From contig JAURFT010000011.1 in NCBI GenBank assembly GCA_030834185.1, forward strand, positions 1-33,884: a stretch of 33,884 nt of DNA, written 5' to 3'. Origin of the DNA: Candidatus Nanopelagicales bacterium (GTDB lineage: Bacteria > Actinomycetota > Actinomycetes > S36-B12 > UBA5976). The notes beneath the pieces are model-generated. The model was given only the letters and a program-made list of their open reading frames with translations. It did no database searches and was not told the DNA's origin. Made by a program: the position numbers and the translations under genes. Positions within the stretch are counted from its first letter, which is position 1, and each line of letters begins with the position of its first letter. Shown here in pieces: positions 582 through 27,550 of the stretch.

Positions 582-699
582 GCAGTAATCCAGCCAGCGT
601 GACCGTAGCTCCCACGCGCCTTAGAGGGGAGTTGGGAACTGGTAGAGTCCTTACGATTTAAGCGTGAAAGTGCAATTTAGGGCCTTTAGCTCAGCTGGC
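582..699 (+). repeat. Left copy of ~120-bp direct repeat: tRNA-Lys upstream region plus first ~20 nt of the tRNA (truncated)
   Basis: GCAGTAATCCAGCCAGCG...CGATTTAAGCGTGAAAG.GCAATTTAGGGCCTTTAGCTCAGCTGGC aligns to 27378-27497 with about 9 substitutions and one 2-nt indel. Confidence 0.93.
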
Positions 700-708
700 T
701 AGGCATCG
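680..708 (+). pseudogene. Truncated tRNA 5' remnant (acceptor 5' strand and D-arm only)
   Basis: GGGCCTTTAGCTCAGCTGGCTAGGCATCG matches the 5' end of the intact tRNA-Lys at 27478; no anticodon arm or 3' half follows. Confidence 0.85.
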
Positions 709-752
709 TATTTATTTCTCAAGATGAACTCAGTTCAGCTCAACTATTGCTG

Positions 753-766
753 GGGAATCGTTACCG
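753..766 (+). promoter_or_regulatory. Candidate LacI-family operator (GGGAATCGTTACCG)
   Basis: Intergenic, upstream of SDR at 864; shares core AATCGTTACC with sites at 4366, 4395 and 24062. Confidence 0.5.
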
Positions 767-863
767 CACCTAATCTAAGTAAGTAATAGTTTTATTGAGG
801 CTGAGATTAATCGAACCGCAGTTTGAATTGCCTGAATTATCTCAGCTTGAGCAAGGGAGCATT

Positions 864-1670
864 ATGGGATTAGAAATGTTTGACCTAACTGGCCGAGTTG
901 CAGTGGTCTCTGGTGCTGCCAGTGGCATGGGTAAAGCTATGGCAACTGCGGTTGCCGAAGCAGGCGCTGATGTTCTGCTTGTTGATATAGATCAAGGTGG
1001 TGTGGAGCGAACCGCGAGAGAGTTAGCGTATCTAGGTAGAAAAATTGTTGCTGAAGTATGTGATGTATCTGATCTGGCAGCGATAGATCAGTTATGGGAG
1101 AAATTAGATAAGCATTTTGGCAGAGTTGATTTTCTGGGAAATGTTGCCGGCAATGGGGCACTAGGTAAACCAGAAGAGATTTCGATGGACACAGTTAAGC
1201 AGGTTGTTCAGAATTTAGTTATTGGACGTTTTTATATGTGTCAGCATGCTGGTAAACGAATGTTGAAGCAAGGCAAAGGCAGCATTGTCAATATTGGTTC
1301 TTTAGCATCAATGAATGCGTTAGGTCGCGGCCATATTGCATACAGCATGTCAATGGGCGCAGTTATTCAGATGACTCGAGAGCTCAGCACCGAATGGAGC
1401 AGCAGAGGGGTTCGTGTTAATGCCATTTTGCCAGGACAGATAATGAATCCACAAATGGAGAAACGAATTGAGAATGATCCAGATATTGAAAACTTCTGGC
1501 TGCGCGGTCTGCCAATTGGAAGATTAGGACAGCCAGATGAAATAAAAGGTCTGTCAGTTTTGATGGCATCTGATGCATCTTCATTTATTACTGGTGCACT
1601 GATTCCATTTGATGGTGGCAACTTGGCTAAGAATGCTGGTGGCTCACATCCAGGGATGCCTAAAAGCTAA
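864..1670 (+). CDS. Short-chain dehydrogenase/reductase family protein (atypical active site)
   Basis: MGLEMFDLTGRVAVVSGAASGMG...; ATG at 864 with upstream GGGAGC preferred over TTG at 795. YxxxK reads YSMSM. Confidence 0.85.
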   Translation: MGLEMFDLTGRVAVVSGAASGMGKAMATAVAEAGADVLLVDIDQGGVERTARELAYLGRKIVAEVCDVSDLAAIDQLWEKLDKHFGRVDFLGNVAGNGALGKPEEISMDTVKQVVQNLVIGRFYMCQHAGKRMLKQGKGSIVNIGSLASMNALGRGHIAYSMSMGAVIQMTRELSTEWSSRGVRVNAILPGQIMNPQMEKRIENDPDIENFWLRGLPIGRLGQPDEIKGLSVLMASDASSFITGALIPFDGGNLAKNAGGSHPGMPKS

Positions 1671-2572
1671 CTAGTTTTTGGTTGCGCCAGGTTATAAATC
1701 ACTAAACCAGTGATAGTTAATATCAAAGCTGGAATAACTGCCAAGCTCACTTTTTGTTCAAACAACCACCAACCAATAAGCGCAATAATTGGGATTTTGG
1801 TTAATCCAACCAGCTGCAATACTGCTGCTTGGCCGTGTTTTAGATACAGATTAGTCATCGCATGAACCACGATCTGACCAATGAAGGCGATTAAAGCAAT
1901 ACCAAGCCATTCTTGATTTGTTTGTACCATAAGCGAACTCTGAGTTAGTAACGCATAACCGAGTGCAATTAGCGTTGAAATTGAAAAAACAATTGCAACA
2001 TATGAAAAGTTTGTAACTGTGGATCTAACTTGTTGTCCAATAATCATATACAGCGCATGAGTTATGGCTGCGATTAGCAGTAATAGCAGTGAAATTAGAT
2101 TCTTTGCTGAAAATGAACTTGCATAGTATGCATAAAGCACAATGCCACCAAATCCAGCCAGCAATCCCGCCCACTGGCCAGCTGTCAGAGTTTGTTTGAA
2201 AAGCAGCATGGATAACACACCAACCCAGATGGTTCCAGTTGACATAATGGTGTAAAAAACTGCCAAACTAACTTGATACAAACCTTCCATGTATGTGATT
2301 AAATGAATTGCGAGCGCGAGTCCAGCAATCAGCATTAAACCCCACTGCTTTTTATTGATAGCTCGATAAAATCTTGGCTCTCCTATAAATGCCAATGGTA
2401 AGAAAAATAATGCAGCAATAAGGCAACGCCAGAATGTCACTACCAAAGGATCCATCGCATAAGCCAGCACAATCGGACTTACAACTAGCGCAGATAACTG
2501 AATAATAAGTAAATATGCAACATCACGAAATGGATGATCAGCAATGCGATTGCTGGCACCTTTAAAATTCAT
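1667..2572 (-). CDS. DMT/EamA-family transporter
   Basis: 301 aa, about ten hydrophobic segments, 'VTFWRCLIAALFFLPLAF' EamA-like N-terminal motif. Confidence 0.85.
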   Translation of the reverse strand: MNFKGASNRIADHPFRDVAYLLIIQLSALVVSPIVLAYAMDPLVVTFWRCLIAALFFLPLAFIGEPRFYRAINKKQWGLMLIAGLALAIHLITYMEGLYQVSLAVFYTIMSTGTIWVGVLSMLLFKQTLTAGQWAGLLAGFGGIVLYAYYASSFSAKNLISLLLLLIAAITHALYMIIGQQVRSTVTNFSYVAIVFSISTLIALGYALLTQSSLMVQTNQEWLGIALIAFIGQIVVHAMTNLYLKHGQAAVLQLVGLTKIPIIALIGWWLFEQKVSLAVIPALILTITGLVIYNLAQPKTS

Positions 2573-2622
2573 TCTGCCACCAAATTATTCTGGATTTTTT
2601 TGCTGAAAAGCTCATATCTGCA

Positions 2623-3528
2623 TCAGCCAGTTCTTGGTTGAGCAAGGTTATAAATTACTAAGCCACCAATTGTTAGCACCAACGCCGGAATTACCTGTAA
2701 TCCAATTCGCTGATTAAATATAACCCAACCAATTATGGCAACCAGCGGAATTTGAATTAACATGGTTAGTTGCAGCAGCGCTGCTTCACCATGCTTTAAG
2801 TAAAGATTTGAAACTGTGTGAACCAAAATTTGACCAAAAAAAGTGATTAACAAAATACCTATCCAGTCACTACTTTTCTCAACCAGAATTGGCCGCTGGG
2901 TAATTAGGGAATAACCCAGCGAAACAACTGCAGCAACCGCAAAAATTACTGCGACATAAGCAAAATTAGTCATGGTTGCGCGAACCTTTTGACCAATCAC
3001 AACATATACCGCACCAGATGAGGCTGAAGCTAACAGCCATAGCAGCGCAGCTAAGTTATCAGCTTCAAAAGAACTTCCAACATAGGCATAAAGCACAATG
3101 CCGCTGATACCTAAAGCCAAGCCTGCCCATTGGCCGGTAGTTAAGAATTGCTTTAATAAAAATATGCCAATTAATCCAACCCAGATTGCGCCAGTTGACA
3201 TAATTGTGAGCGCAACCCCAAGGCTAACTTGATACAAACCTTGCATTAATCCTATGAAATGGATCGCTAGTGCAACTCCTGCCAACAACATATAACCCCA
3301 TTGTGAGTTAGTTATGTTTTTATAGAACTTTGGTTGAGTGAAAAGCGCAATTGGAAAAAAAATTAGCGCCCCAAAAAAACAACGCCAGAAGGTAACTAGC
3401 ACCGGATCTATGGCATAGGCGACCACAATTGGGTTAAGGATCAATGCAGAGGTATTGATAGTAATTAAGTAAATAATGTCACGATGGCGATGAGATGAGA
3501 TGTGATCCCCAGCAGCAGAAAGACTCAT
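2623..3528 (-). CDS. DMT/EamA-family transporter (tandem paralogue)
   Basis: 301 aa; shares blocks such as VTFWRC, QGLYQVSL, IMSTG-IWVG, TGQWAGL, GIVLYAY, LYLKHG-AA-LQL, GLVIYNLAQP with the neighbour. Confidence 0.85.
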   Translation of the reverse strand: MSLSAAGDHISSHRHRDIIYLITINTSALILNPIVVAYAIDPVLVTFWRCFFGALIFFPIALFTQPKFYKNITNSQWGYMLLAGVALAIHFIGLMQGLYQVSLGVALTIMSTGAIWVGLIGIFLLKQFLTTGQWAGLALGISGIVLYAYVGSSFEADNLAALLWLLASASSGAVYVVIGQKVRATMTNFAYVAVIFAVAAVVSLGYSLITQRPILVEKSSDWIGILLITFFGQILVHTVSNLYLKHGEAALLQLTMLIQIPLVAIIGWVIFNQRIGLQVIPALVLTIGGLVIYNLAQPRTG

Positions 3529-4293
3529 TTAGTTGGCGGACCAACCTCCATCAACTGACAACACAATTCCATGCACATATTCAGCAGCTGGTGAAGCTAA
3601 GAACACCGCAGCTCCTGCAATATCTTCTGGCTTTCCCCATCGCTTGGCAGTAATGCGACTATTGATGAATGCATAACGCTCAGGCATATCGGTTTTTAAA
3701 TTAGAATTTATATCAGTTTCAATAAAGCCTGGTGCAATTGCATTTACATTAACCCCATGCTGCGCCCACTCATTGGAAATAGCTTTGGTGATGCCGCCAA
3801 TTCCATGCTTTGAGGCGGCATAACTAACCACATTTAATCCACCCTGTAGTGTCCAAAGTGAGCCAATAAAGATTATCTTTCCGCTTTTTCGCTCTACCAT
3901 TTGTTTACCAACTTCACGGGCCAACACAAACGGTGCAGTTAAATTCACCTGCATGACTTGATCCCACATCTCATTAGTGTGCTCAAGGGTTGGGGTGCGC
4001 TGAGTTATTCCCGCATTATTGACCAAAATATCAATTTTTAAATCAGTTAATTTCTCAGTTAGGGCTTTAACTTCAGCTGGGTTAGCAAAATCACATTTTA
4101 TTGCAGTAAACCTGCGCCCAAGTGCCTTAACTTGGTCTTCAACTTCACTTGGACCTTCACCTAGTTGGGCACTAACGCCAATTATGTCCGCACCCTGAGC
4201 TGCGAAAGCTACCGCGATTGCCTTACCAATACCCCTTCGAGCTCCAGTAATAAGCGCTGTTTTCCCGCTTAGATCAAAAATGGGTGATACCAA
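3529..4293 (-). CDS. SDR oxidoreductase, KduD-like (2-deoxy-D-gluconate 3-dehydrogenase family)
   Basis: FDLSGKTALITGARRGIGKAIA, NNAG, SYAASK, SVDGGWSAN. Confidence 0.85.
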   Translation of the reverse strand: MVSPIFDLSGKTALITGARRGIGKAIAVAFAAQGADIIGVSAQLGEGPSEVEDQVKALGRRFTAIKCDFANPAEVKALTEKLTDLKIDILVNNAGITQRTPTLEHTNEMWDQVMQVNLTAPFVLAREVGKQMVERKSGKIIFIGSLWTLQGGLNVVSYAASKHGIGGITKAISNEWAQHGVNVNAIAPGFIETDINSNLKTDMPERYAFINSRITAKRWGKPEDIAGAAVFLASPAAEYVHGIVLSVDGGWSAN

Positions 4294-4365
4294 TTAGTCA
4301 CCATTCCAAGATTAGAAAAATCATTGGGTTCACCTTAGTTGGATTGAGGTGAAGAAGTCCATCTC

Positions 4366-4379
4366 TGGTAACGATTTAA
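4366..4379 (-). promoter_or_regulatory. Candidate LacI-family operator (minus strand TTAAATCGTTACCA)
   Basis: In the divergent intergenic region 4294-4509; paired with the opposite-facing site at 4395-4408. Confidence 0.5.
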
Positions 4380-4394
4380 TATCTAAGCAAATTA

Positions 4395-4408
4395 TGAATT
4401 CGTTACCA
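4395..4408 (+). promoter_or_regulatory. Candidate LacI-family operator (TGAATTCGTTACCA)
   Basis: Shares CGTTACCA with the site at 4366-4379 (opposite orientation). Confidence 0.5.
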
Positions 4409-4441
4409 CACCAAGTTTGGTTGCAGTTTGGTTTCATCGTG

Positions 4442-4470
4442 TTGACTTGCACTTTAGGCAAGTCTACGCT
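4442..4470 (+). promoter_or_regulatory. Candidate sigma70-type promoter overlapping an inverted repeat
   Basis: TTGACT (4442-4447), 17-nt spacer, TACGCT (4465-4470); GACTTGC-actttag-GCAAGTC perfect IR at 4444-4464. Confidence 0.5.
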
Positions 4471-4509
4471 TCACCACAGTTACCAAAAAGAAATTACAAA
4501 TGGAGCAAA

Positions 4510-5484
4510 ATGACAAAACCTATATTTGCAGTAGCAACTGGATCTATTGCAATGCCAAACTGGATTGATCCACTTGCAAAAGAATTAGGTTTTGAATTGC
4601 GACCTGGGTCCATTGACACTCCAGCTGAAGTTGCAGAATTAACTGAAGGCGCGACCTCATTGCTTGTTGCAGTGCAACCAGTTACTCGCGAAAAAATTGC
4701 AGCGCTGGCAAGTTCGGTTGAATCAATTGGTCGAATGGGAGTTGGGCTAGACAATATAGATTTAGATGCAGCTAAGGAACATGGCATTGCAGTAGTGCAT
4801 CAGCCAGCCTATGCAATTGATGAAGTTTCTAACCATGCTGCCGCAATGATTCTGGCTTCAAATCGAGTGCTGTTGCAATCAGATCAAGACTTGCGCAGCA
4901 ATGGTTGGCGAACGCAGGATTTTCCAAGGGTAATGTCACTTGAGAATTCAGTGTTAGGCGTGATTGGTTGCGGTCGAATTGGCCATGCGCTGATGACCAA
5001 GATGCGACCTTTCTTTACTGAAGTTATTGGATATGACCCAATGCTAAAAGCAGATTCATTTGATTTTGAATTAGTTTCATCTGTTGATGAAATATTAAAG
5101 CGTTCTGATGTGATTTCGCTGCATTCACCACTTACTCCAGAAACTAAGAATTTAATCGATGCGCGTGCAATTTCTGTTATGAAAGATGGCGCAATGTTGG
5201 TTAACGTTTCTCGCGGTGGATTAATCGATGAAATAGCTTTAGCTGCTGCACTTGCCTCAGGTAAAATCTCAGCTGCTGGTTTGGATGTTTTTGAAGCCGA
5301 ACCGCTACCTGAAAATTCAGTGCTTCGCGGTGCTCCTAATTTGATCCTAAGCAGCCATATTGCCTGGTACTCCGAAGTTGCTGGACCTCGGCTAGTGCAG
5401 TGGTCAGCAAAAGATGTTTTTGAATATCACAAATCTAAATCAATAACTCACGGTCGCTTAGCTGTTGACCCAAGATCTAATTAG
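4510..5484 (+). CDS. D-isomer specific 2-hydroxyacid dehydrogenase
   Basis: MTKPIFAVATGS...; VGLDNIDLDAAKEHGI, GVIGCGRIG, VNVSRGGLID, AGLDVFEAEPLP, SSHIAW (catalytic R, E, H present). ATG 4510 preferred over upstream GTG 4417. Confidence 0.88.
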   Translation: MTKPIFAVATGSIAMPNWIDPLAKELGFELRPGSIDTPAEVAELTEGATSLLVAVQPVTREKIAALASSVESIGRMGVGLDNIDLDAAKEHGIAVVHQPAYAIDEVSNHAAAMILASNRVLLQSDQDLRSNGWRTQDFPRVMSLENSVLGVIGCGRIGHALMTKMRPFFTEVIGYDPMLKADSFDFELVSSVDEILKRSDVISLHSPLTPETKNLIDARAISVMKDGAMLVNVSRGGLIDEIALAAALASGKISAAGLDVFEAEPLPENSVLRGAPNLILSSHIAWYSEVAGPRLVQWSAKDVFEYHKSKSITHGRLAVDPRSN

Positions 5485-5499
5485 TTAAGGAGCATCACA

Positions 5500-5748
5500 A
5501 TGGAAGAAGTGTTCATTCCTGCGCTGGGCATGGCGATGGAAGAGGCTTATTTAGAAAAATGGCTAAAGCATCCAGGTGATGCTGTGAACGCTGGAGATGT
5601 CATTGCACTTATTGAGACGGATAAAGCGCAAGTTGAAGTTGCATGTGAAACAGCAGGAACTGTTGGTAAGCACCGATTCGAAGTGGGGGCTTCGGTACCG
5701 GTTGGTGAAACCATTACTGTTGTTTTAGCGCCAGGCGAATCTGAATAA
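5500..5748 (+). CDS. Stand-alone lipoyl/biotinyl domain protein (82 aa)
   Basis: MEEVFIPALGMAMEEAYLEKWLKHPGDAVNAGDVIALIETDKAQVEVACETAGTV; lipoyl-Lys motif ETDKA; nothing after the single domain. Confidence 0.85.
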   Translation: MEEVFIPALGMAMEEAYLEKWLKHPGDAVNAGDVIALIETDKAQVEVACETAGTVGKHRFEVGASVPVGETITVVLAPGESE

Positions 5749-5752
5749 GGGA

Positions 5753-6742
5753 ATGGTAGGAGAAGTCATGGGGACAAGAGAAGAAATGCTAGCCATGTTG
5801 CGAATGATGATGATGATTCGCAATTTTGAAGAAACTGCCGACAAGCTGACACTTCGGGGAAAAGTTTCTGGTGGTATGCATAACTCATCAGGCCAAGAGG
5901 CGGTTGCCGTTGGCGTGATGAGTGCTCTTGCCCCTGACGATGTAATTGCTACAACACACCGGTCTCACCATCACACCTTGGCAAAAGGATTTAGTGCGCG
6001 TGAAGTGATGGCAGAGTTAATGACTAAAGCAACCGGAGTATCTAAGGGTCGTGGTGCATCAATGCACCTTGGCGATGTTGCTCGCGGCCACTTTGGTGGT
6101 AACGGAATTGTGGGCGCAGGCATGGGTATTGGTATGGGTGCTGCACTTGGCATCAAACTTGCTGGCGATAAAAAAGTAGCAGTTGGGTTTGTTGGAGATG
6201 GTGGTATGAATACCGGCCGCACCTGGGAAGCTGTAAATATGGCTGCGATCTGGAAGCTACCTTTAATTGTGGTAGTTGATAACAATCAATATGCTGTTGA
6301 AACTTTCATTGAACGTGTAACCGCTGGTGGCGACCTACCAAAGCGCGCTAGTGGATTTGGGTTGCCAGCATCAACAATTGATGGCCAAAATGTGCTCGAA
6401 GTTAAAGATGCAGTAGCTAAGGCGCGTGATTTTGCGCTAGCTGGCAATGGTCCAACATTTTTAAATGCGGTTACTTATCGCTATTACGGACACAACGTTG
6501 GCGAAAAAGGGCAGTATCGAACTTTAGAAGAGATTGAAGATTGGCGAACCAATCGTGATCCTATTGATCAACTTGCAGCTAGATTATTTGCTGATGGTTT
6601 ATTAGATCAAGCAACATTTGATGAGATGACCGCGAGTGTGGAAGCTGAAATTAAAGATGCCGTGGAGTTTGCTGAAAACTCACCGAATCCAGATCCAGCT
6701 GACGTAATGCTAAATGTTGATTCTGGAAAGTTGAGAGGTTAA
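5753..6742 (+). CDS. Thiamine-PP-dependent dehydrogenase E1 component alpha subunit
   Basis: MHNSSGQEAVAVGV, TTHRSHHH, GDGGMNTGRTWEAVNMAAIWKLPLIVVVDNNQYA. Start may be ATG 5768, which has the SD-like GGAG upstream. Confidence 0.88.
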   Translation: MVGEVMGTREEMLAMLRMMMMIRNFEETADKLTLRGKVSGGMHNSSGQEAVAVGVMSALAPDDVIATTHRSHHHTLAKGFSAREVMAELMTKATGVSKGRGASMHLGDVARGHFGGNGIVGAGMGIGMGAALGIKLAGDKKVAVGFVGDGGMNTGRTWEAVNMAAIWKLPLIVVVDNNQYAVETFIERVTAGGDLPKRASGFGLPASTIDGQNVLEVKDAVAKARDFALAGNGPTFLNAVTYRYYGHNVGEKGQYRTLEEIEDWRTNRDPIDQLAARLFADGLLDQATFDEMTASVEAEIKDAVEFAENSPNPDPADVMLNVDSGKLRG

Positions 6743-6744
6743 TC

Positions 6745-7716
6745 ATGGCAAGTGAACCAACATACTCTGAGGCTTATCAATCGGGTATTCGCGAGGAGAT
6801 GAATAACAATCCAAAAATATTCATCATGGGCACAGACCTACAAGAGCGCGGTGGACACTTTGCTCAGGTTAAAGGAATTGCACAAGAGTTTGGTGGCGAG
6901 CGGGTAAGAGATACCCCAATTTCAGAAGCAGCCATGATCGCAGCTGGAGTTGGCGCAGCGATGTATGGCATGCGCCCAGTTGTAGATTTAAATTTCATGG
7001 ACTTTGCGTTAGGCGCAATGGATGAAATTATTAATCAAGCAGCCCATATTCGATATATGTTTAATGGCTCAGTTCCGCTAATTATTCGTGCAACATCTGG
7101 AATTGCTCAAGCAGGTGCGCATCACAACAATAGTTTTGAGTCATTTTTTGCGCACACCCCAGGACTCTCTGTTGCAGTGCCAGGAACACCATGGGATGTT
7201 AAAGGGCTGCTAAAAACTGCGCTACGCGCTGATGATCCAGTTATATTTATGATGCACAAAAAATTAACTGGCATGCGCGGTCCTATTGGTGGGCCAGAAG
7301 ATTTAGTTCCGTTTGGCAAAGCTCGCATCGCTCGAGAAGGTGCAGATGCGACTTTGGTTACCTACGGCTACACCTTGATTCCAGCCATGAAAGCTGCTGA
7401 AACTTTAGCTGCTGAAGGCAAGCAGGTTGAGATTTTGGACTTAAGAACACTGTTCCCAATGGATATGGATGCAGTAATTGAGGCAGTTAAGCGAACTGGT
7501 CGCATGGTGGTTGTTGATGAAGCGCCGCTGTTTGCTTCAATCACTGCTGAAATCGCTGCTACTGCATCTGAGGCTGCATTTGATTCGCTGAAGGGTCCAA
7601 TAGTTCGAGTTGGAGCACAACGAGCTCCGCTTAGTGCAGATCCTGGGATGGTGGAAGCTACTATTCCATCGATTTCGGATATAGAAGCAGCGTTACGTAA
7701 AGTGCTTAGCTACTAA
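6745..7716 (+). CDS. Dehydrogenase E1 component beta subunit
   Basis: GGVFGVT-type N-terminus variant, DTPISEAAMIAAGVGAAMYGMRPVVDLNFMDF, QAGAHHNNSFESFFAHTPGLSV, DLRTLFPMD; immediately downstream of E1 alpha. Confidence 0.88.
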   Translation: MASEPTYSEAYQSGIREEMNNNPKIFIMGTDLQERGGHFAQVKGIAQEFGGERVRDTPISEAAMIAAGVGAAMYGMRPVVDLNFMDFALGAMDEIINQAAHIRYMFNGSVPLIIRATSGIAQAGAHHNNSFESFFAHTPGLSVAVPGTPWDVKGLLKTALRADDPVIFMMHKKLTGMRGPIGGPEDLVPFGKARIAREGADATLVTYGYTLIPAMKAAETLAAEGKQVEILDLRTLFPMDMDAVIEAVKRTGRMVVVDEAPLFASITAEIAATASEAAFDSLKGPIVRVGAQRAPLSADPGMVEATIPSISDIEAALRKVLSY

Positions 7717-7747
7717 TATCTGAACTACTTAGTTTAGGAGTGGGCTA

Positions 7748-8932
7748 ATGCCAAACTTGCTACCCAAGTTTCGCAAACCTGAATTCAGCGCGAAAAAACG
7801 CCGAGTTAAACGAGCGCTAACTATTTATGATCTTCGCAATGCAGCAAAAAGCTGCACGCCAACGCCAGCTTTTGATTACACAGATGGTGCTGCTGAAGAT
7901 GAGATTAGTTTGCAGCGAGCTCGGGATGCCTATCGCAATGTGGAGTTTCAACCAAATGTGCTGCGAGATGTCTCGCAGTTAGATACTGCAGTTGATTTAT
8001 TTGGCAAAGCTTCAGCTTTTCCACTAGGGATAGCACCAACTGGATTCACTCGAATGATGAATACTGAAGGTGAAGTTGCTGGTAGCAGGGCAGCTGCAAA
8101 GTTTGGTATTCCATTCTGTCTTTCAACCATGGGCACAACTTCTATTGAAGATGTGATGCAGGCAGCGCCAACTGGTCGCAACATGTTTCAGCTTTATATG
8201 TGGAAAGACCGCGAGAAAAGCATGGCGCTAGTAGATCGGGCAGCGAAAGCAGGCGTTGACACTTTGATGTTAACCGTTGATGTTCCAGTTGCCGGGGCCA
8301 GATTGCGCGATGTGCGAAATGGCCTAACTGTGCCACCAACTTTAACTTTGAAAACAATGTTAAATGCCGCACCACGAGTTGGTTGGTGGTGGAATTTTCT
8401 AACAAAACCAAAATTGGAATTTGCTTCGCTAGGCGAATGGCCCGGCACGGTTGCTGAATTGATTGATAGCATGTTTGACCCAACTATTGATTATCAAGAT
8501 TTAAAGTGGATTCGCGAATATTGGAGCGGCAATTTAGTAGTTAAAGGCATTCAGACAGTTGAAGATGCCAAGTTAGCTTTTGATCATGGCGCTGACGCAA
8601 TTATGCTTTCAAATCATGGCGGCAGACAGCTCGATAGAGCTCCAGTGCCGCTGTATCAGTTGCAAGAAACTGTTAAAGCAGTTGGTAAAGATAAGCCAAT
8701 TCATATTGATACTGGAATTATGCATGGCGCAGATGTGGTCACTGCGCTAGCTCATGGAGCTAAGTTCGCCTGGGTAGGTCGCGCCTACCTATATGGACTG
8801 ATGGCCGGCGGCCAGTTAGGCGCGGAGCGATCACTTGAGATATTAACTAATCAAATGTCACGCACTATGAGATTATTAGGTGTAAGCAATGTGGCTGAAC
8901 TTGAGCCAAAACATGTTAAGTTTTTGCAATGA
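7748..8932 (+). CDS. FMN-dependent alpha-hydroxy-acid dehydrogenase (LldD/GOX family)
   Basis: FDYTDGAAEDEISLQRARDAYRNVEFQPNVLRDVS, LTVDVPVAGARLRDVRNG, LSNHGGRQLDRAP, FAWVGRAYLYGL. Confidence 0.9.
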   Translation: MPNLLPKFRKPEFSAKKRRVKRALTIYDLRNAAKSCTPTPAFDYTDGAAEDEISLQRARDAYRNVEFQPNVLRDVSQLDTAVDLFGKASAFPLGIAPTGFTRMMNTEGEVAGSRAAAKFGIPFCLSTMGTTSIEDVMQAAPTGRNMFQLYMWKDREKSMALVDRAAKAGVDTLMLTVDVPVAGARLRDVRNGLTVPPTLTLKTMLNAAPRVGWWWNFLTKPKLEFASLGEWPGTVAELIDSMFDPTIDYQDLKWIREYWSGNLVVKGIQTVEDAKLAFDHGADAIMLSNHGGRQLDRAPVPLYQLQETVKAVGKDKPIHIDTGIMHGADVVTALAHGAKFAWVGRAYLYGLMAGGQLGAERSLEILTNQMSRTMRLLGVSNVAELEPKHVKFLQ

Positions 8933-18775: not shown

Positions 18776-19519
18776 ATGAATCAGGTTTGGTCAACTCCAG
18801 TTAAAGCGCCGCTTTATCCAACTTTTCCAGTGGAATATAAAGCAGTGAAGATTTTAAGCATTGTTTATCGAAGTGATATTGAGTTAATTCAAGCAGATCT
18901 ACCTGCAGGTCTAGTTGCTACATCAGATTGCGTAATGGTCCATTGCTATGACATGCCAGATGTGCAAGGGATGGGGCAGGTGCAAGAGGCCAATGTCATG
19001 GTTGGCGTTAAGACCGATTTTGGTGGCGAAGTGATTTCAGGTGGCTTTAGCACCAACCTAATTATTAGCTCAGATGTGGGATTGGCTCAGGGGAGAGAAG
19101 TTCATGGTCAACCAAAAAAACTTGGTAATGTCAGTTTGCAAGCAAGAGGCGATACTCATGTCGCAGAGATCTGGCGAAACGACATCAGGGCTTTTAGAGC
19201 AACCACTCCATACAAATATCAACGCAGTGAGATTGCCGAGTTAGAGAATATTTTTAGTTTCAAAAATAATATTAATCATAAAGTCATCCCAAATATTGAT
19301 GGCAGCATTGCGATCAATCAGATAACAACTCGAACTTTGCGTGATGTTGAGGTTTATGAATTTTGGTCTGGACCTACAACTGTTGAATTGGCACCGCATA
19401 TTCAGGTTCCGCTTTATCGGCATCCAGTTATAGAGCCGGTGCTTGCGTGTTATTGGGTAGCTGATTTTAAGTTAAAACCAGGTGCGATAGTTCATGATTA
19501 TCTGGCAGTTGAAAAATGA
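18776..19519 (+). CDS. Acetoacetate decarboxylase (ADC)-family protein
   Basis: GREVHGQPKKLGNVSLQ (ADC-type lysine motif); ATG 18776 preceded by GGAGGT. Confidence 0.8.
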   Translation: MNQVWSTPVKAPLYPTFPVEYKAVKILSIVYRSDIELIQADLPAGLVATSDCVMVHCYDMPDVQGMGQVQEANVMVGVKTDFGGEVISGGFSTNLIISSDVGLAQGREVHGQPKKLGNVSLQARGDTHVAEIWRNDIRAFRATTPYKYQRSEIAELENIFSFKNNINHKVIPNIDGSIAINQITTRTLRDVEVYEFWSGPTTVELAPHIQVPLYRHPVIEPVLACYWVADFKLKPGAIVHDYLAVEK

Positions 19520-20271
19520 CAAACACAACTGACATTACAAATCACATTATTCTTGTGACTGGAGCCGCTAGCGGAATTGGGAAACAGATAGCTGCGCAGT
19601 TAGCAGCACAAGGCGCAGAGGTTATAGCTGCAGATTTAAATCTAGAAGCATTAGAAGCGCTCAAATCTGAGGTCAACAAAGCCAATTTTCATATTAAGAA
19701 AGTTGATTTCAACAATGACCAAAGTATTATCTCTTTAGTCTCTGAGGTAGAAAACCAGATTGGGCCAATTAAAGGTTTGATAAATTGTGTTGGAATTTTA
19801 GGTAAAAGTGGCATGCTTTCTGAAGATATTGATTTAGTTAATTTTGATCTGGTTTATCAAATTAATTTACGCGCCGCACTGGTTTTATCAATGCAGGTTT
19901 TAAAAGCCATGAAGCCTCGTGGGTATGGCCGAATTTTGCAGCTAGCAAGCATTTCTGGCAAAGAGGGCAATCCAGGTTTAGTTGCATACTCAGTAACTAA
20001 AGCTGGGTTGATTGCGCTAGTTAAGGCACAAGGAAAAGAGTATGCGCCATTTGGCATAACAATTAACGCGTTAGCGCCTGCGCTAATTGATACCCCAATG
20101 ACTGCAAGTTTTGAGCCAGAGCAGCGACAATATTTAGAATCCAAAATACCTATGAATCGCTTAGGCACTGTGGAAGAAGTTGCATCTTTAGCGGCCTGGA
20201 TCATTTCGCCAGCTTGCAGTTTCACAACTGGGTTTGCTTTTGACTTGACAGGGGGAAGAGCTACTTACTGA
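19516..20271 (+). CDS. SDR oxidoreductase
   Basis: HIILVTGAASGIGKQIAAQL, AYSVTKAGLIAL, ITINALAPALIDTPM; ATGA overlap with upstream gene. Confidence 0.87.
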   Translation: MTNTTDITNHIILVTGAASGIGKQIAAQLAAQGAEVIAADLNLEALEALKSEVNKANFHIKKVDFNNDQSIISLVSEVENQIGPIKGLINCVGILGKSGMLSEDIDLVNFDLVYQINLRAALVLSMQVLKAMKPRGYGRILQLASISGKEGNPGLVAYSVTKAGLIALVKAQGKEYAPFGITINALAPALIDTPMTASFEPEQRQYLESKIPMNRLGTVEEVASLAAWIISPACSFTTGFAFDLTGGRATY

Positions 20272-20317
20272 TTTAGTTTTAGTTTGTTAAAACCAACCAA
20301 AAAAAGGAGAGATAGAT

Positions 20318-21169
20318 ATGCGAATTATTAGACTCGGAGAGTATTTGGCAGAGCGTCCTGCTGTCCAAGTTTCTGCGACCGAAGCGGTTTTTGTGGATTC
20401 AATCATCCCTGATTGGAATCGTGAATCACTTTCAACAGGTGGCTATGAAGCCGTGAAATCTGCAGACTTAAATAGTTTGCCAAAGGTAAAAATAGCTGAT
20501 TTTAGAATTGGTTCACCAATGGCAAGACCAACCAAACTGATTTGCATTGGTCTTAATTATGCAAAGCATGCAGCAGAATCAAATGCAGAAATACCAAAAG
20601 AGCCAGTTGTGTTCATGAAGGCACCAGATGCACTTATTGGTCCAAATGATGACATTAGAATTCCAAAAAATAGTGTTAAAACTGATTACGAGGTAGAGCT
20701 AGCAATAGTTATTGGTAAGCGAGCGCTGTATCTTGAATCAGAGAAAGATGCGCGAGAACATGTTTTGGGCTTTTCATTAAGTCAAGACGTTAGTGAGCGC
20801 GAATGGCAGATCGAGCGCGGCGGCCAATGGGTAAAAGGAAAGTCATTCCCAACATTTAATCCAATGGGCCCAGTTGTGGTCACCAAAGATGAATTTGATC
20901 CAGCTGATGCGAATTTGTGGACCAAGGTCGATGGTGAATCCAGACAAAATTCTTCAACTAAAGATCTAATCTTCAATGTAGATCACATTGTTTGGTATGT
21001 AAGTCAGTGTATGGAGCTTTTCCCTGGTGACATCATTAATACCGGCACACCTGAAGGTGTTGCAGCAGGAATGAAGCCACCGGCATTTTTAACTGTAGGT
21101 CAACATGTGACAACCGGCATTGCTGGAATTGGCGAACAGAGTTCAAAAGTTATCGCTTACAACGCCTAA
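20318..21169 (+). CDS. Fumarylacetoacetate hydrolase-family protein
   Basis: KLICIGLNYAKHAAES, PVVFMKAPDALIGPNDDI, DYEVELAIVIGKRA, FNPMGPVVVT, LFPGDIINTGTPEGVAAGM; AAAGGAGAG SD. Confidence 0.88.
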   Translation: MRIIRLGEYLAERPAVQVSATEAVFVDSIIPDWNRESLSTGGYEAVKSADLNSLPKVKIADFRIGSPMARPTKLICIGLNYAKHAAESNAEIPKEPVVFMKAPDALIGPNDDIRIPKNSVKTDYEVELAIVIGKRALYLESEKDAREHVLGFSLSQDVSEREWQIERGGQWVKGKSFPTFNPMGPVVVTKDEFDPADANLWTKVDGESRQNSSTKDLIFNVDHIVWYVSQCMELFPGDIINTGTPEGVAAGMKPPAFLTVGQHVTTGIAGIGEQSSKVIAYNA

Positions 21170-22065
21170 CTAGTTGTAACCACATTTGTAATCGGCTCGC
21201 CTTGTGCGAGCCGATTCAATTGTTGGGCAATCATTCTTTTAGCTCGACCTGGAAATGCCGTTGAATTTCCGCCAGTATGCGGACTGATCAAAAGGTTTGG
21301 CGCCTGCCACAGCGGGTGATTTAGCGGCAGTGGCTCAGGATCAGTTACGTCCACAGCAGCAGTTATCCACCCTGAGCTAAGCGCTTCAACTAAATCTGCG
21401 GTGACAACTACCGGTCCGCGTGCCATGTTAACCAGTAGGGCGCCGCGCCTCATTAATTTCATCTTATTCAGATCAAACAATCCTTTAGTTTCAGCAGTTA
21501 AAGGGGTAATCAGAATTACAATGTCATATTGATTTAACTCAGCATCTAGCTGACTTATTTTCTTTGTGCCATTTGAGCCAGACCTGGTGTAGCCGGTGAT
21601 GTTCTGCGTAAACGGCAAGAACACTCTGCCAATCTCTTGCCCAACTGAGCCATATCCAACAATTGCCACCGACGCATCGATGATCGAATCTCGCACATAC
21701 CTCAACCAATGCTGTGAGCTTTGAGATGCAATCAAGTCTGAAACTCTAGCTTTGCTAGCTAGCGTCAAGGTGAGAGTTAGTTCAGCTGTGGATAAATCAT
21801 GTAAACCACGGGCATTTGCCAAAGTTACGCCTTCTGGAATTAGCGGCAATACATCGTCATAACCGGCGGTTAGCACTTGCACTAGTTTCAGATTGGGCAT
21901 CTTGGGGATGCGATGTAAAGACTCCGCTCCACCCATATATTTAGGAATGTAAACGGTGATCTGGTCTAACTTAGCTTGATCAGTTAAATCATTTTCATCG
22001 GTTAGAAAATTAAATCCATTTGGGAGATCGATATCATCCCATTGGCACCAAATTGTTTCGGTCAT
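21166..22065 (-). CDS. D-isomer specific 2-hydroxyacid dehydrogenase
   Basis: VAIVGYGSVGQEIGRVF, LVNMARGPVV, AAVDVTDPEPLPLNHPLW, ISPHTGG. Confidence 0.88.
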   Translation of the reverse strand: MTETIWCQWDDIDLPNGFNFLTDENDLTDQAKLDQITVYIPKYMGGAESLHRIPKMPNLKLVQVLTAGYDDVLPLIPEGVTLANARGLHDLSTAELTLTLTLASKARVSDLIASQSSQHWLRYVRDSIIDASVAIVGYGSVGQEIGRVFLPFTQNITGYTRSGSNGTKKISQLDAELNQYDIVILITPLTAETKGLFDLNKMKLMRRGALLVNMARGPVVVTADLVEALSSGWITAAVDVTDPEPLPLNHPLWQAPNLLISPHTGGNSTAFPGRAKRMIAQQLNRLAQGEPITNVVTTS

Positions 22066-22132
22066 TATTTCCCTAAGTTGTGATTTGCATATTGAACACG
22101 GATATGAGCACTTAAGTCAACTATTAAATCTA

Positions 22133-22160
22133 TTGACTTTAAAATTTATATGAGTAGATT
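22133..22160 (+). promoter_or_regulatory. Candidate sigma70-type promoter
   Basis: TTGACT (22133-22138), 16-nt spacer, TAGATT (22155-22160); -35 is one arm of AAGTCAA-N12-TTGACTT inverted repeat (22114-22139). Confidence 0.5.
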
Positions 22161-22189
22161 TAAACTAACCTTATCTAGTTGGGATATAA

Positions 22190-23161
22190 ATGAAAGTATT
22201 AATTTTTGGCGGCACTCGATTTATGGGTAGGTATGTATGTGAAAGTTTACTAGCAGCAGGTTTTGATGTAACTATTGCTAATCGTGGAACCCGTGATCAG
22301 GCGCCTGGCACAACTCATATTTCTTGTGATAGATCAGATGTTAGTAATTTAGCTAAACTAAAAGACATAAGCTTTGATTATGTAATTGACTTTTCAGCTT
22401 ATGATTCAAATTGGGTAGAGCAGGCTGCAGAGATCTTTAAACATAAGATAAAAAGATATATTTTCATTTCCAGTGGCGCTGTATATAAACCATCAACTGT
22501 ATTTCCAATTCAGGAGCATTTTGTTCGTGAAGCTGCGGGCTTACATTATGAATACTCGGCTCAAAAAATACGATCAGAGCAGTTGCTGGTTAGCTATCAT
22601 GAACAAGGGTATTTTGAGACCGTTTCTTGCAGATTGCCATACGTGCTAGGCGCACACAATTATGAAGATCGCGAGGGTTTTGTACTAAGTCGACTACTTG
22701 CTGATAAGCCAATTGTGGTTCCAGATGATGGAGCAGCTTTGCATTCCTTTATTTTTGCTGGTGATGTTGCATTGGCAATCTTGAAATTAATTAAAGCACC
22801 TGCATTTGTCTCTGGAGAAGCTTTTAATATTGCAATATCTCAAGGAATTACAACTTTAGGTTTTATTGAGACCTGCGCTGAAATAGTTGGGAAAACACCT
22901 CAGCTGCATCCACTCAATCTTGAAAAGGCGGGACTGAAAACAGATCGATTTGATCTTAAGAATCTGCTATTCCCATTTCCTCAAGCAAACGGGTATCTGG
23001 ATAACACCAAGCTGCTTAAGTATTTGAATTTTACCCCAACACACACGCTGCCAGAGATGATCGAGCAGTTCTATAAGTGGTGGTTAGTAAATTCTGATCT
23101 GCAGCCAACTAAGTATGAACTTGAAGCAAAAGCACTAGCAGCGCTGGGCCTATCGGACTAG
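22190..23161 (+). CDS. NAD-dependent epimerase/dehydratase (extended SDR)
   Basis: MKVLIFGGTRFMGRYVCESLLAAGFDVTIANRG, YEYSAQK. Confidence 0.83.
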   Translation: MKVLIFGGTRFMGRYVCESLLAAGFDVTIANRGTRDQAPGTTHISCDRSDVSNLAKLKDISFDYVIDFSAYDSNWVEQAAEIFKHKIKRYIFISSGAVYKPSTVFPIQEHFVREAAGLHYEYSAQKIRSEQLLVSYHEQGYFETVSCRLPYVLGAHNYEDREGFVLSRLLADKPIVVPDDGAALHSFIFAGDVALAILKLIKAPAFVSGEAFNIAISQGITTLGFIETCAEIVGKTPQLHPLNLEKAGLKTDRFDLKNLLFPFPQANGYLDNTKLLKYLNFTPTHTLPEMIEQFYKWWLVNSDLQPTKYELEAKALAALGLSD

Positions 23162-23994
23162 TTCTTTATTTTAGGTGCTTGTTGTGACTTTACTGGCAGT
23201 CGCATATAGCCAAGATCGGTAGGGATTAATTGTTTGGATAGTGACTTTACGTATCCAACAATTTCTGCAAATGAACTATTTGCTGGAACAGCTTGTTCAA
23301 TTATCTTCGCTACCTCATCAATTTCTTGCTGGGCTTTTTTGATGTCACCAGCAATATAAAATGCATAAGCTGCACAAAATTTATCTGGAAACACATTAGC
23401 AAGCCCAAGGATGCCGCCATTTGCCCCAGCTTCAAGTGATGGGATTAGGAGTTTGTCGCTTCCAACTAAAAGATTTTTCCCAGTTGCTAGATATTTTTTA
23501 GTTGCAGCTAAGTCTCCGCTGGAATCCTTAACTCCCCAAACATCAACCTGTTCAACTACTTCTACGGGTAGCTCAACTGCACAAGCTGGGATGTTGTAAG
23601 CGATAATTTTAATTTTAGTTGCTGCAACGATATTTTTATACATCGCAACCATCGCCTCTGTGTCAGCAGGCTGAAAGTAACTTGGTGGCAACACCATCGC
23701 GTGCGTAACGTCTGTGCTTTCAAGCCAAGTAAGAAATTCCTTGATGGTTCCCAGGCTATTAGTAATTAAGGTTGGAATAACATGTTTGTCACCTTTTATC
23801 TTGAGTAGCTCTGAAGTAATCAGCTTCATTTCTTCAAGACTTAAAGATGCGCCTTCGCCAAAGGTACCAAAAGGAATTAGCCCTGCAATATCAGTTTTGA
23901 GTAACCAGTTAGCATGATCAATAGTGGCGCTTAAATCTAAATCACCGTTTGCGGTGAAGGCGGTGAAAGTTGGTACAAAGATTCCTTTTAACAT
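23158..23994 (-). CDS. DapA/N-acetylneuraminate lyase-family aldolase
   Basis: MLKGIFVPTFTAFTANGDLD, GTFGEGASLSLEE, IAYNIPA (Tyr), VWGVKDSSGD (Schiff-base Lys). Confidence 0.85.
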   Translation of the reverse strand: MLKGIFVPTFTAFTANGDLDLSATIDHANWLLKTDIAGLIPFGTFGEGASLSLEEMKLITSELLKIKGDKHVIPTLITNSLGTIKEFLTWLESTDVTHAMVLPPSYFQPADTEAMVAMYKNIVAATKIKIIAYNIPACAVELPVEVVEQVDVWGVKDSSGDLAATKKYLATGKNLLVGSDKLLIPSLEAGANGGILGLANVFPDKFCAAYAFYIAGDIKKAQQEIDEVAKIIEQAVPANSSFAEIVGYVKSLSKQLIPTDLGYMRLPVKSQQAPKIKN

Positions 23995-24061
23995 GGGCTG
24001 AGTGTATATCTTGAGTTCCAAAATATGCGAAAACTCAAGTTAATCTTCCCCGTTGGTTCTG

Positions 24062-24075
24062 TGTAATCGTTCCCC
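24062..24075 (+). promoter_or_regulatory. Candidate LacI-family operator (TGTAATCGTTCCCC)
   Basis: Divergent intergenic region between the aldolase and the SDR at 24141; fits TGnnAnCGnTnnC. Confidence 0.45.
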
Positions 24076-24140
24076 TTAAATACACTCGCGTTCGATACAG
24101 TTCTCCACATAAATGAGATTGCAGAATTGGACAGGTGATC

Positions 24141-24959
24141 ATGGTTGATTCACGTTTTGATCTGACTGGGAAAGTCGCAATTGTTACCGGTGGCGCTGGC
24201 GGGATTGGATCTGCGACCGCACGGCTACTAGCTAGCTATGGTGCGAAGGTTTTGATTACAGATATAAATCAAGCATCGCTAGATGCAGCTCAAGAAATGT
24301 TTAAAAGTGAAAATCTTGACGTAGTTGGTTACTTAACAGATTCAAGTGACGAAAAGCAATCAGTTGCATTCTTTAATAAAGTTGAGCAACTTCATGGCAC
24401 CGCTGATATTTTGGTGAATAACGCGTACCAGGGCATACATTCACCACCACATCAGACTTCACTTGATGAATGGAATCGAGTGATTACAACATCTTTAACT
24501 GGATATTTTTTATATGCTAGAGAGTTTGCTAATCGTTTGATTGCAGCAAAGCGTTCAGGCCAAATCGTAAATATCAGCTCTATTGCTGGCAGCAGCGCAT
24601 TAGGTCGGGGAAATTTTGCTTATAGCGCTGCAAAAGGTGGCGTAAATCAACTAACCAGAGAGTTGGCTATTGAGTGGGCGAGATCAAAAATTCGAGTTAA
24701 CGCCATTCAGCCTTGCTCGGTTAACACTCCAGGTTGGCGGCGCTGGATTGATAGCGAGGGCGAACGAGGCGAGCAAATTGTCGCCAATCTAGTTAGTGGA
24801 ATTCCGCTTGGCAGGGTAGCTGAACCAACTGATATCGCCAGCGCTGTGCATTTTCTAGTCAGTGACGCATCAGCAATGGTGACTGGCGTGATCTTGCCTG
24901 TAGATGGTGGAAATTTGGTCTTGAATGCTGGTGGCACTATAGGGAATTATTCGGGATGA
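24141..24959 (+). CDS. SDR oxidoreductase
   Basis: FDLTGKVAIVTGGAGGIGSATA, AYSAAKGGVNQLTRELAIEW, VDGGNLVLNAGG; similar to the 864 SDR but with intact YxxxK. Confidence 0.87.
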   Translation: MVDSRFDLTGKVAIVTGGAGGIGSATARLLASYGAKVLITDINQASLDAAQEMFKSENLDVVGYLTDSSDEKQSVAFFNKVEQLHGTADILVNNAYQGIHSPPHQTSLDEWNRVITTSLTGYFLYAREFANRLIAAKRSGQIVNISSIAGSSALGRGNFAYSAAKGGVNQLTRELAIEWARSKIRVNAIQPCSVNTPGWRRWIDSEGERGEQIVANLVSGIPLGRVAEPTDIASAVHFLVSDASAMVTGVILPVDGGNLVLNAGGTIGNYSG

Positions 24960-24979
24960 ACTTCAATAATTGCAAGCTA

Positions 24980-25048
24980 GCCAGCGGGCTTTGGGCATCG
25001 CGGGCTGCTGCAGTACAGTTAATTATTGGAGTTACCCACTCCGCTGGC
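24980..25048 (+). promoter_or_regulatory. Potentially structured leader of the LacI gene
   Basis: GCCAGCGG (24980-24987) pairs with CCGCTGGC (25041-25048) just upstream of the SD; enclosed/overlapping hairpin GGAGT-TACCC-ACTCC (25028-25042). Confidence 0.35.
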
Positions 25049-25059
25049 AGAGGTGAAAA

Positions 25060-26064
25060 GTGAGCACAGAAAACTTTAAACACCCCACTATCTCTGATGT
25101 TGCTGCCCTAGCTGGTGTTTCAACAGCAACGGTTTCTAGAGTGTTGGGTCACAGCGGATATGTTTCTGGAACCGCACGAGCTCGCATCGAAGCAGCTATA
25201 GCTGAATTAGATTATCGACCATCCTCAGTTGCACAATCACTTAAGCAACGAAGAACCAACTTAGTTGGCGTTATCGTAAGAGATATCCACCATCCTTATT
25301 ACCCAACCCTGGTGCATGGAATTGAAACTCAGGCACAGGAGTATGGCTACTCGATGATTCTTTGCAATGGCATGAATGACATAGATCGAGAAACTAAGTA
25401 TTTTGACTATCTAGCATCAAGAAGTGCTGACGGCATCATTATTGCAAGTGGAAGTTTCATGCAAAGGCATTATGACTATTTATGTCAATCCAGAACGCCG
25501 GTAGTGATTTCAAACGTAGATACTTATGATGCAAAGATTCCTTCTATATCAAGCGAAGCCAGAGAAGGTGCGCGCCTAGCCGGGAAACACTTAGTTGAAG
25601 CTGGCTATGAAAAATTTGCTTATATTTGTGGACCAAAAGACCTAAGCACTGCAATTGTTCGGCGAGATGGATTTATTGAAGGTGTTGGAACTAGTGATGT
25701 CACTGTGGTTTATGGTGAATCTGATGTGGCAAGTGGTGAGCGAGCAATCGAGGAACTTAAATCAGTATTGGGTCCAGGATTGGGTATTGCTGCTACTAAT
25801 GATCAAACCGCCATTGGAGCTATGCAAGCAGCGCAGCGATTAGGTTATCGCGTACCTGATGACATTGGTTTCATTGGTTTTGACAACATCGACACTGGTC
25901 AATTCACCAGTCCTAGACTTTCTACCATCGATAATAATCGACATCTAGTTGGTATGAAATCTATGCAGGTATTAAAAAATGTCATTGACAAAAAAGGTGG
26001 ACCACTTCATGATGCTGTTCGCCCGGTTTTGGTAGTGCGAGGCTCAACTCAGCGTTATCGATAA
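25060..26064 (+). CDS. LacI-family transcriptional regulator
   Basis: PTISDVAALAGVSTATVSRVLGHSGYVSGTARARIEAAIAELDYRPSSVAQSLKQRRT; GTG start. Confidence 0.93.
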   Translation: MSTENFKHPTISDVAALAGVSTATVSRVLGHSGYVSGTARARIEAAIAELDYRPSSVAQSLKQRRTNLVGVIVRDIHHPYYPTLVHGIETQAQEYGYSMILCNGMNDIDRETKYFDYLASRSADGIIIASGSFMQRHYDYLCQSRTPVVISNVDTYDAKIPSISSEAREGARLAGKHLVEAGYEKFAYICGPKDLSTAIVRRDGFIEGVGTSDVTVVYGESDVASGERAIEELKSVLGPGLGIAATNDQTAIGAMQAAQRLGYRVPDDIGFIGFDNIDTGQFTSPRLSTIDNNRHLVGMKSMQVLKNVIDKKGGPLHDAVRPVLVVRGSTQRYR

Positions 26065-26078
26065 TTGCTGGTGGCGCG

Positions 26079-27284
26079 TTGATTACTTCTAAGTCATCTG
26101 ACGTATTAATTGTTGGGGCTGGCGTTGTTGGGCTTGCAATTGGTTTGGGAATTTTAGAATCACGTCCAACTTCTAAAGTAATAATCCTAGAAAAGGAATC
26201 AGCGCTAGGTAAGCATGCCAGTGGTAGAAATTCTGGTGTATTACATGCTGGTTTCTATTATTCGCCAGATTCCCTGAAGGCAAAATTTTGTCGGGATGGA
26301 AATTTAGAGCTTAGAGAACTATGTCGTGAGTTTAATATCCCGCTAAAAGAAGTTGGTAAAGTTGTTGTATCTAGAAATGAAGCTGAAGATCTTCGACTTG
26401 ATAATCTACTTGAGCGTGGTGAAGCTAACGGTGTAGAGCTTGAATTGCTACCTAAATCACGGTTAGCTGATTTTGAACCGCTAGCAAAAACATATGAAAG
26501 ATTTTTGTGGTCTCCAAATACGGCCATCTCAGATTCGAGCAGTGTGATTTCGGCAATGCGCAGTAAATTTATAAGTCTTGGTGGAGAGTTAATTTTTGAT
26601 GCTCGAGCAGAATTAACACTTAACCAAGATGAAGTAGTTATAGCCGGCTATGACGCAACAATTGTAATTAATGCAGCTGGAGCTCAAGCTGATCGCGTTG
26701 CACGCAAACTTGGTCTTGCCAAAGATTATGCGATGGTGCCATTTATGGGCTTGTATCGAAAGACAAATTCCCAGTTATTGCCATTGCAAAAATTGGTTTA
26801 TCCAGTCCCGCATCCAATAAACCCATTTTTAGGTGTGCACTTCACAGTTACTTTGACTGGGAGTGTAAAAATTGGCCCAACTGCAATTCCCGTTTTAGGG
26901 CGTGAGCAGTATTCGCTTTGGTCGGGGTGGTCAATCTCGGATATGTATCAAGGAATCATTGGTGCAACCGCGCTAATCAGCGGAGATGCTCACAGTTTTG
27001 GTGAGATTTTGAAATCAGAGCTGCCCAAATTATTACAACGATCTTTGGTTAATCAGGCTGCTGAGTTAGTGCCAACTGCAAGCAGTGTAAAAAAATGGCA
27101 GCGGCAGCAGCCTGGAATTCGTGCGCAGTTGGTTAATAAGCGAACTGGCGAGCTGGAGCAAGATTTTATTGTGGAGCAATCACACAACTCAATTCATGTA
27201 TTAAATGCCGTATCTCCTGGCTGGACGAGCTCGATCCCATTTGGCCGTTGGGTTGCCCAGACCAAAGTGTTACCTCAGTTATAA
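26079..27284 (+). CDS. lhgO: L-2-hydroxyglutarate oxidase-like FAD-dependent oxidoreductase
   Basis: VLIVGAGVVGLAIGLGIL, ILEKESALGKHASGRNSGVLHAGFYYSPDSLKAKFC, VINAAGAQAD; TTG start. Confidence 0.85.
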   Translation: MITSKSSDVLIVGAGVVGLAIGLGILESRPTSKVIILEKESALGKHASGRNSGVLHAGFYYSPDSLKAKFCRDGNLELRELCREFNIPLKEVGKVVVSRNEAEDLRLDNLLERGEANGVELELLPKSRLADFEPLAKTYERFLWSPNTAISDSSSVISAMRSKFISLGGELIFDARAELTLNQDEVVIAGYDATIVINAAGAQADRVARKLGLAKDYAMVPFMGLYRKTNSQLLPLQKLVYPVPHPINPFLGVHFTVTLTGSVKIGPTAIPVLGREQYSLWSGWSISDMYQGIIGATALISGDAHSFGEILKSELPKLLQRSLVNQAAELVPTASSVKKWQRQQPGIRAQLVNKRTGELEQDFIVEQSHNSIHVLNAVSPGWTSSIPFGRWVAQTKVLPQL

Positions 27285-27377
27285 ATTATCAGCCAAGTTG
27301 GCTAACTCGCGCATACTTGTAGGCCAAGGATTGCTGCTGAATTGCTCAGTTATCAGGGCTTTACGGGTTTAGCTGGC

Positions 27378-27497
27378 GCAGTAATCCAGCCAGCGCGAAC
27401 GCAGCTCCCACGCGCCTTAGAGGGAAGTTGGGATAACTGGTAGAGTCCGCTCGATTTAAGCGTGAAAGCGCAATTTAGGGCCTTTAGCTCAGCTGGC
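27378..27497 (+). repeat. Right copy of the direct repeat (tRNA-Lys upstream region plus tRNA 5' end)
   Basis: Aligns to 582-699. Confidence 0.93.
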
Positions 27498-27550
27498 AGA
27501 GCAACGGACTTTTAATCCGTGGGTCGTCGGTTCGATCCCGACAGGGCCCA
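27478..27550 (+). tRNA. tRNA-Lys (anticodon TTT), 73 nt without encoded CCA
   Basis: GGGCCTT.TA.GCTC.AGCTGGCA.GAGC.A.ACGGA.CTTTTAA.TCCGT.GGGTC.GTCGG.TTCGATC.CCGAC.AGGGCCC.A; all four stems fold. Confidence 0.97.

Follow-up and report, generated by a model that had tools for sequence, protein, structure and literature searches.

A truncated tRNA-Lys 5' end and an old catabolic gene block at a tRNA-Glu/tRNA-Lys hotspot of a lake actinobacterium

The integrases that act at tRNA genes have known crossover subsites, in the anticodon loop, in the T-loop and at the T/acceptor junction, and islands marked by a 5' fragment of the tRNA gene form a minority class, 159 of the 3,919 in Islander (PMC4383910). 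Tycheposons are defined by a border tRNA together with a tyrosine recombinase (PMC10872708). Additive flexible genomic islands (fGIs) lie at tRNA genes of streamlined aquatic bacteria, examples being fGI1 of Ca. Actinomarinales (PMC7771536) and fGI-2 of Methylopumilus, Methylophilaceae (PMC10872708). Homology-facilitated illegitimate recombination, with sequential displacement of modules, has been proposed for the T6SS immunity arrays of V. cholerae (PMC5361080).

The locus compared with these systems here is a 33,884-nt stretch of DNA (the window), which is contig C21 of a 1.34-Mb, 142-contig metagenome-assembled genome (MAG) of a lake actinobacterium (G000). A sequence-only reading had proposed that a ~120-bp direct repeat beside tRNA-Lys bounds an acquired 26.7-kb catabolic island. 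The repeat is real: within-genome comparison finds 91% identity (E 3.6e-44) between a left copy of 122 bp and a right copy of 124 bp, which differ, as that reading had counted, by 9 substitutions and one 2-nt indel (Table 1). Its content is the promoter side of tRNA-Lys(TTT) and the first 20 nt of the tRNA. The left copy ends in the D-arm, and the right one runs on into an intact tRNA, which ARAGORN and Rfam find to be the single complete one in the window. Contig C63 ends in a further, partial copy, the only other one in the genome, and the repeat is thus no common element. Rfam, at gathering and at relaxed thresholds, assigns the non-tRNA part of the repeat to no RNA family; folding of the repeat is not significant (z -1.7 for the right copy, +0.2 for the left); a viral contig collection searched with it gave no match. 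The idea that the left fragment is a decayed copy that once reached the anticodon loop was rejected: positions 21-36 match at ~10/16, but evenly spread decay would not give the abrupt drop from 100% to ~60% identity. A 5'-tRNA match in another genome (G023) was also rejected as a fragment, being a contig end.

Table 1. Features of the window, in order. G002 is a congener; C63 is another contig of the same MAG.
Feature	Position	Strand	Remark
Secreted/surface protein gene, C-terminal part, cut by contig start	1..496	+	probable allele of the 433-aa protein at the C63 end
Left repeat copy	578..699	+	tRNA-Lys upstream region and nt 1-20
tRNA-Lys 5' fragment, nt 1-20, D-arm end at GCTGGC	680..699	+	20/20 match; identity lost past nt 20
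Original flank on the left of the block (on the tRNA-Glu side in G002), adjoining the seam	700..863	+	742-777 vs G002, 80%
Resident catabolic gene block, ~27 metabolic genes	864..27284	.	Pfam/NCBIfam; complete and collinear in G002
Extra upstream stretch common to the C63 surface-module allele, lost from the left copy	27335..27373	+	
Right repeat copy, continuing into the intact tRNA	27374..27497	+	
Intact tRNA-Lys(TTT)	27478..27551	+	ARAGORN, Rfam
Gamma-glutamyltransferase (ggt), first right-flank gene	27573..29165	+	G002 orthologue 70% identical

That the repeat pair bounds an acquired island is not supported by the congener G002 (public Actinomycetota MAG K_DeepCast_35m_m1_047, VGBH01; contig VGBH01000027), which holds all the block genes in the same order, at 60-93% amino acid identity, and in the same place between tRNA-Glu and tRNA-Lys, without the left repeat. 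Its contigs C15, C27 and C9, joined through end overlaps of 38/40 and 32/32 nt, give the layout tRNA-Phe/Asp/Glu, ~240 bp, block, ~100 bp, tRNA-Lys. One tRNA-Lys match and no fragment is present in G002, nothing upstream of that tRNA is similar to the repeat, and the genes of the surface-protein module described below were not found there. The second congener, G001, is the empty relative that the sequence-only reading had predicted along with variable cargo: its tRNA-Glu and tRNA-Lys are ~106 bp apart with nothing between them, and it has no match to the block's left third. The block therefore sits at this position in one congener of two, and its presence there in all relatives, the outcome named in advance as adverse to an island, is half realized.

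In other genera of the family tRNA-Glu and tRNA-Lys lie 0.6 kb (G004) and 1.8 kb (G025) apart. Because the spacing is short in these genomes and in G001, the two tRNA genes are ancestral neighbours, set apart by insertions in the genus of the window genome. Conserved borders thus enclose differing content: nothing in G001, short stretches in G004 and G025, the block in G002, and in the window genome the block presumably linked to a surface-protein module. The interval from the divergent tRNA-Phe/Asp/Glu cluster to tRNA-Lys(TTT) is an integration hotspot, that is, a flexible genomic island, in this actinobacterial genus. The 3' side of tRNA-Lys is variable too, since G002 has an extra gene between tRNA-Lys and ggt (contig C9, L035, 9907-12322), transketolase/pyruvate-dehydrogenase-E1-like as read from its sequence. 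Elsewhere in the family, contig C112 of G007 (L044) carries on its minus strand three copies, at 3.4 kb spacing, of a ~110-nt unit (4847-4891, 8254-8301, 11652-11701), in which the 3' half of tRNA-Lys (from ~nt 31) is fused to a conserved non-tRNA stretch of ~60 nt. Glycosyltransferase and envelope genes lie between the units, and the whole looks like a classical integrative-cassette array at tRNA-Lys.

Pfam and NCBIfam assign to the block five SDRs, two EamA permeases, two 2-hydroxyacid dehydrogenases, a lipoyl protein, E1 alpha/beta, an FMN-dependent dehydrogenase, an ABM protein, a KDPG-type aldolase, an Ldh2-type dehydrogenase, an FGGY kinase, a family-5 binding protein with an Opp/Dpp-type ABC transporter, an acetoacetate decarboxylase-like protein, a FAH hydrolase, an epimerase, a DHDPS-family aldolase, a LacI regulator and an L-2-hydroxyglutarate oxidase-like protein. 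The operon at 5500-9249 combines a stand-alone 82-aa lipoyl-domain protein (motif ETDKA) with E1 alpha/beta and the FMN-dependent 2-hydroxyacid dehydrogenase; as neither an E2 catalytic domain nor an E3 lies close by, it is an unusual 2-oxoacid dehydrogenase set, and at 88-93% amino acid identity to G002 it is the most conserved part of the block. The genes at 3529-4293, 9246-9860, 20318-21169 and 26079-27284 suggest, from their predicted products, a role in sugar-acid catabolism; the candidates are a KduD-like SDR, the KDPG-type aldolase, the FAH hydrolase and the L-2-hydroxyglutarate oxidase, the last of these scoring above its cut-off. The FAH hydrolase is nearest to 2,4-didehydro-3-deoxy-L-rhamnonate hydrolase, below the cut-off of that model. 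In the right flank, a search of the genome contig collection with the ggt protein gave no match, and a SAM-IV riboswitch (108 bits, 32815-32927, minus strand) precedes an amino-acid-type ABC transporter operon (30252-32772). The same operon occurs on CANLAC010000113.1 (L120, 4-3833; a MAG contig of isolate ZE-17mar17-60) beside relatives of the FMN dehydrogenase and of SDR2, and block and right flank may therefore once have been one cluster.

The relative ages of block and repeat follow from a comparison of G000 with G002 over 27 block genes and 12 flanking genes. Median nucleotide identity is 70.4% in the block and 72.2% in the flanks (Mann-Whitney P 0.19), identical 4-fold sites amount to 39.2% and 41.1%, and GC (43.5 and 45.8%) and GC3 (33 and 35%) are similar; in neither composition nor divergence does the block depart from its core-gene neighbours as a recently acquired foreign island should. 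Since its divergence from G002 equals that of the flanks, the block has long been resident here and was inherited vertically. The repeats, 91% identical to each other and with no similar sequence upstream of tRNA-Lys in G002, are then the product of a duplication far younger than the block, and not the mark of its arrival, although an old duplication would seem young if gene conversion had homogenized its copies. Such a tRNA-fragment repeat thus by itself neither dates nor bounds the block that it encloses; here a single congener was enough to turn the sequence of events round.

The left side of the seam is seen in fuller form on C63. Outward from tRNA-Phe/Asp/Glu this contig encodes first a response regulator and then a membrane protein of 599 aa, which has weak similarity to histidine-kinase-like proteins of relatives; three proteins that are secreted or anchored follow. 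Together they form a two-component/surface-protein module of ~6.6 kb that adjoins tRNA-Glu. The last gene, for the 433-aa surface protein, is followed by a spacer and then by the first 39-43 nt of the repeat. Window positions 1-199 are 94% identical to that gene, after which the C-termini diverge; over the longer comparison of window 1-577 with C63 (locus L004) 44-664 the surface alleles give way to wholly different C-terminal domains and spacers, which is possibly strain-level, antigen-like variation. Neither the protein of window 1..496 nor the 433-aa protein has a Pfam match. Over 27335-27416 the C63 spacer, with the beginning of the repeat, agrees at 79 of 82 nt with the right copy and the sequence before it, although the repeat segment itself carries the left-copy variants; since the homology reaches back to 27335, the duplicated segment measures at least ~163 bp in one allele. 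Exact runs of 33 and 39 nt are shared by the ends of C63 and C21. These sequence likenesses suggest that C63 and the start of C21 are two alleles of one place, which makes the order tRNA-Glu, surface module, left repeat likely; the two are separate contigs that we infer to be linked, and C63 could belong to a second strain in the bin (4.1% contamination). A candidate repeat copy at the tRNA-Glu end of the module (22-nt match, P 0.02; second alignment, P 0.08) was set aside. Response regulator, histidine-kinase-like gene and large repeat/LRR surface proteins also adjoin tRNA-Lys in G030 (contig C91, L042, 3477-9384), and cargo of the same kind lies at a tRNA-Met with 3'-tRNA fragments in G016 (contig C3, L045, 2814-13694); resembling the C63 module as they do, these are instances of a recurrent cargo type at tRNA hotspots.

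The left tRNA fragment most likely marks the seam, at 699/700, of surface module and block. To its right the sequence is homologous, clearly so from ~742, to what lies in G002 between tRNA-Glu and the block's first gene; the collinear distance to this gene is 169 nt in the window and 160 nt in G002. The tRNA-Glu side of C63 is similar to G002 as far as the same motif (GATTTGACCTGCTGG against GATTTGAACTTGG). The GCTGG(C) shared over 6 bp at the inferred join is not significant alone, and a 17-nt match of 695-711 to the G002 flank (P 0.0024 with the CTGGC shared with the tRNA, 0.10 without it) is suggestive only. On the simplest reading the module, together with the 5' end of tRNA-Lys, was joined to the flank of tRNA-Glu over a few shared bases; equivalently, the D-arm of tRNA-Lys received the block and its flank over the same kind of short match. 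That the seam is an assembly chimera of two strains is very remote: the MAG is in 142 contigs, and C63 and C21 resemble the two branches of an assembly bubble, but the two sides of the seam have at most ~6 bp in common, much less than the word length of any assembly, and the sequence on its right has a homologue in the G002 flank. Ectopic copying, as an internal duplication of what lies upstream of tRNA-Lys and without exchange of a module, would suit the shortness of the copied segment and the failure to find a donor strain; it is highly improbable, as the copy sits just where a surface module absent from G002 meets the block's original flank.

The reading that we prefer, at a probability of roughly 0.6, is that the old resident block and the surface module were stacked at the Glu/Lys hotspot by strain-to-strain recombination, with the truncated tRNA as scar. 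Two alternative alleles would have existed, one with the surface module and one with the catabolic block between tRNA-Glu and tRNA-Lys, and recombination between strains, with either allele as the recipient, would have put both into one chromosome. Homologous exchange would have taken place at one anchor, either the tRNA-Glu cluster or tRNA-Lys with its downstream genes; the other end would be an illegitimate, microhomology-sized join between GCTGGC of the tRNA D-arm and the similar motif in the tRNA-Glu flank. The outcome would be a truncated tRNA on the left and an intact tRNA-Lys on the right. One-sided homology with an illegitimate second end accounts for a seam without an integrase and for the leftover piece of an older allele. 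No strain with the surface module and an intact tRNA-Lys but no block was found. The mirror image, which corresponds to the sequence-only reading, has the block enter a locus that already held surface module and tRNA-Lys, through recombination at tRNA-Lys with DNA of a strain of the species or of a near relative, and would yield exactly the same product; the C63 surface gene stands directly before a right-type spacer and repeat, and G001 lacks the block. We nevertheless consider this order of events rather unlikely, because block and flanks are equally diverged from G002; by the same token only a close relative with the block already at this locus could have been the donor, and the event would be an exchange of alleles, not the arrival of an outside island.

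An integrase has been sought more widely. None is present among the window genes scanned with Pfam, in keeping with what the sequence-only reading had seen, nor in C63 1-6.2 kb, and matches to the tyrosine recombinase family PF00589 occur in the genome on C57, C65 and C121 only. An intact tRNA and a same-strand fragment flank the cargo, as Islander expects; no tyrosine integrase gene lies inside or overlaps the island, and the match breaks off in the D-arm, after tRNA nt 20, where no crossover subsite is known. Insertion by an integrase into the 5' half of tRNA-Lys, with loss of the integrase since, is distinctly improbable: Islander admits a 5' fragment upstream of the tRNA, and the G007 array shows classical-looking tRNA-Lys 3'-half units in the same family, but besides the missing integrase and the D-arm end, the similarity extends 98-143 nt into the promoter side, the block is older than the repeat, and G002 lacks the fragment. 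The earlier contrast with classical duplication of the 3' end has to be softened, since the Islander minority class has a 5' fragment too. Recombination stands as likelier than classical 3'-end integrase insertion; that the repeats bound an acquired island is not supported.

Apart from its unusual 5'-tRNA scar, the locus is an ordinary hotspot of the flexible-genomic-island kind, a new instance of the well-known swapping of genes at tRNA loci. It defines in this family a tRNA-Glu/tRNA-Lys hotspot to which metabolic and surface-protein cargo has been added and which could be followed in lake populations. The broader proposition, that streamlined freshwater actinobacteria stack gene blocks at a tRNA hotspot without an integrase, using the tRNA 5' end as joining point, is improbable on present evidence; were it true, 5'-tRNA scars would record successive additions between strains.

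Islander-type islands with a 5' tDNA fragment share with the window locus the fragment upstream, the intact tRNA downstream and their common orientation; the locus departs from them in having no integrase, a break away from the crossover subsites, and a block older than the fragment (PMC4383910). A tRNA is present as in tycheposons, and the recombinase is absent. With the additive fGIs it has in common the tRNA hotspot, the stacked cargo, a partial tRNA as direct repeat, and envelope-related cargo on one side, but the Methylopumilus repeats are the last 20 bp of the tRNA-Lys(ctt) gene, whereas the repeat here is the 5' end with the promoter region, and no integrase is seen (PMC10872708). Replacement fGIs, which arise by homologous exchange between flanking conserved genes (PMC10872708), resemble it in that, without an integrase, different gene sets occupy one and the same interval between conserved tRNA genes; here the alternatives appear to be stacked and not swapped, and the two alleles suggested by C63 and C21 are seen within one MAG. 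The V. cholerae arrays are alike in combining one homologous anchor, one illegitimate end and a leftover of the older allele; there the modules are protein genes, and here the leftover is the 5' end of a tRNA (PMC5361080).
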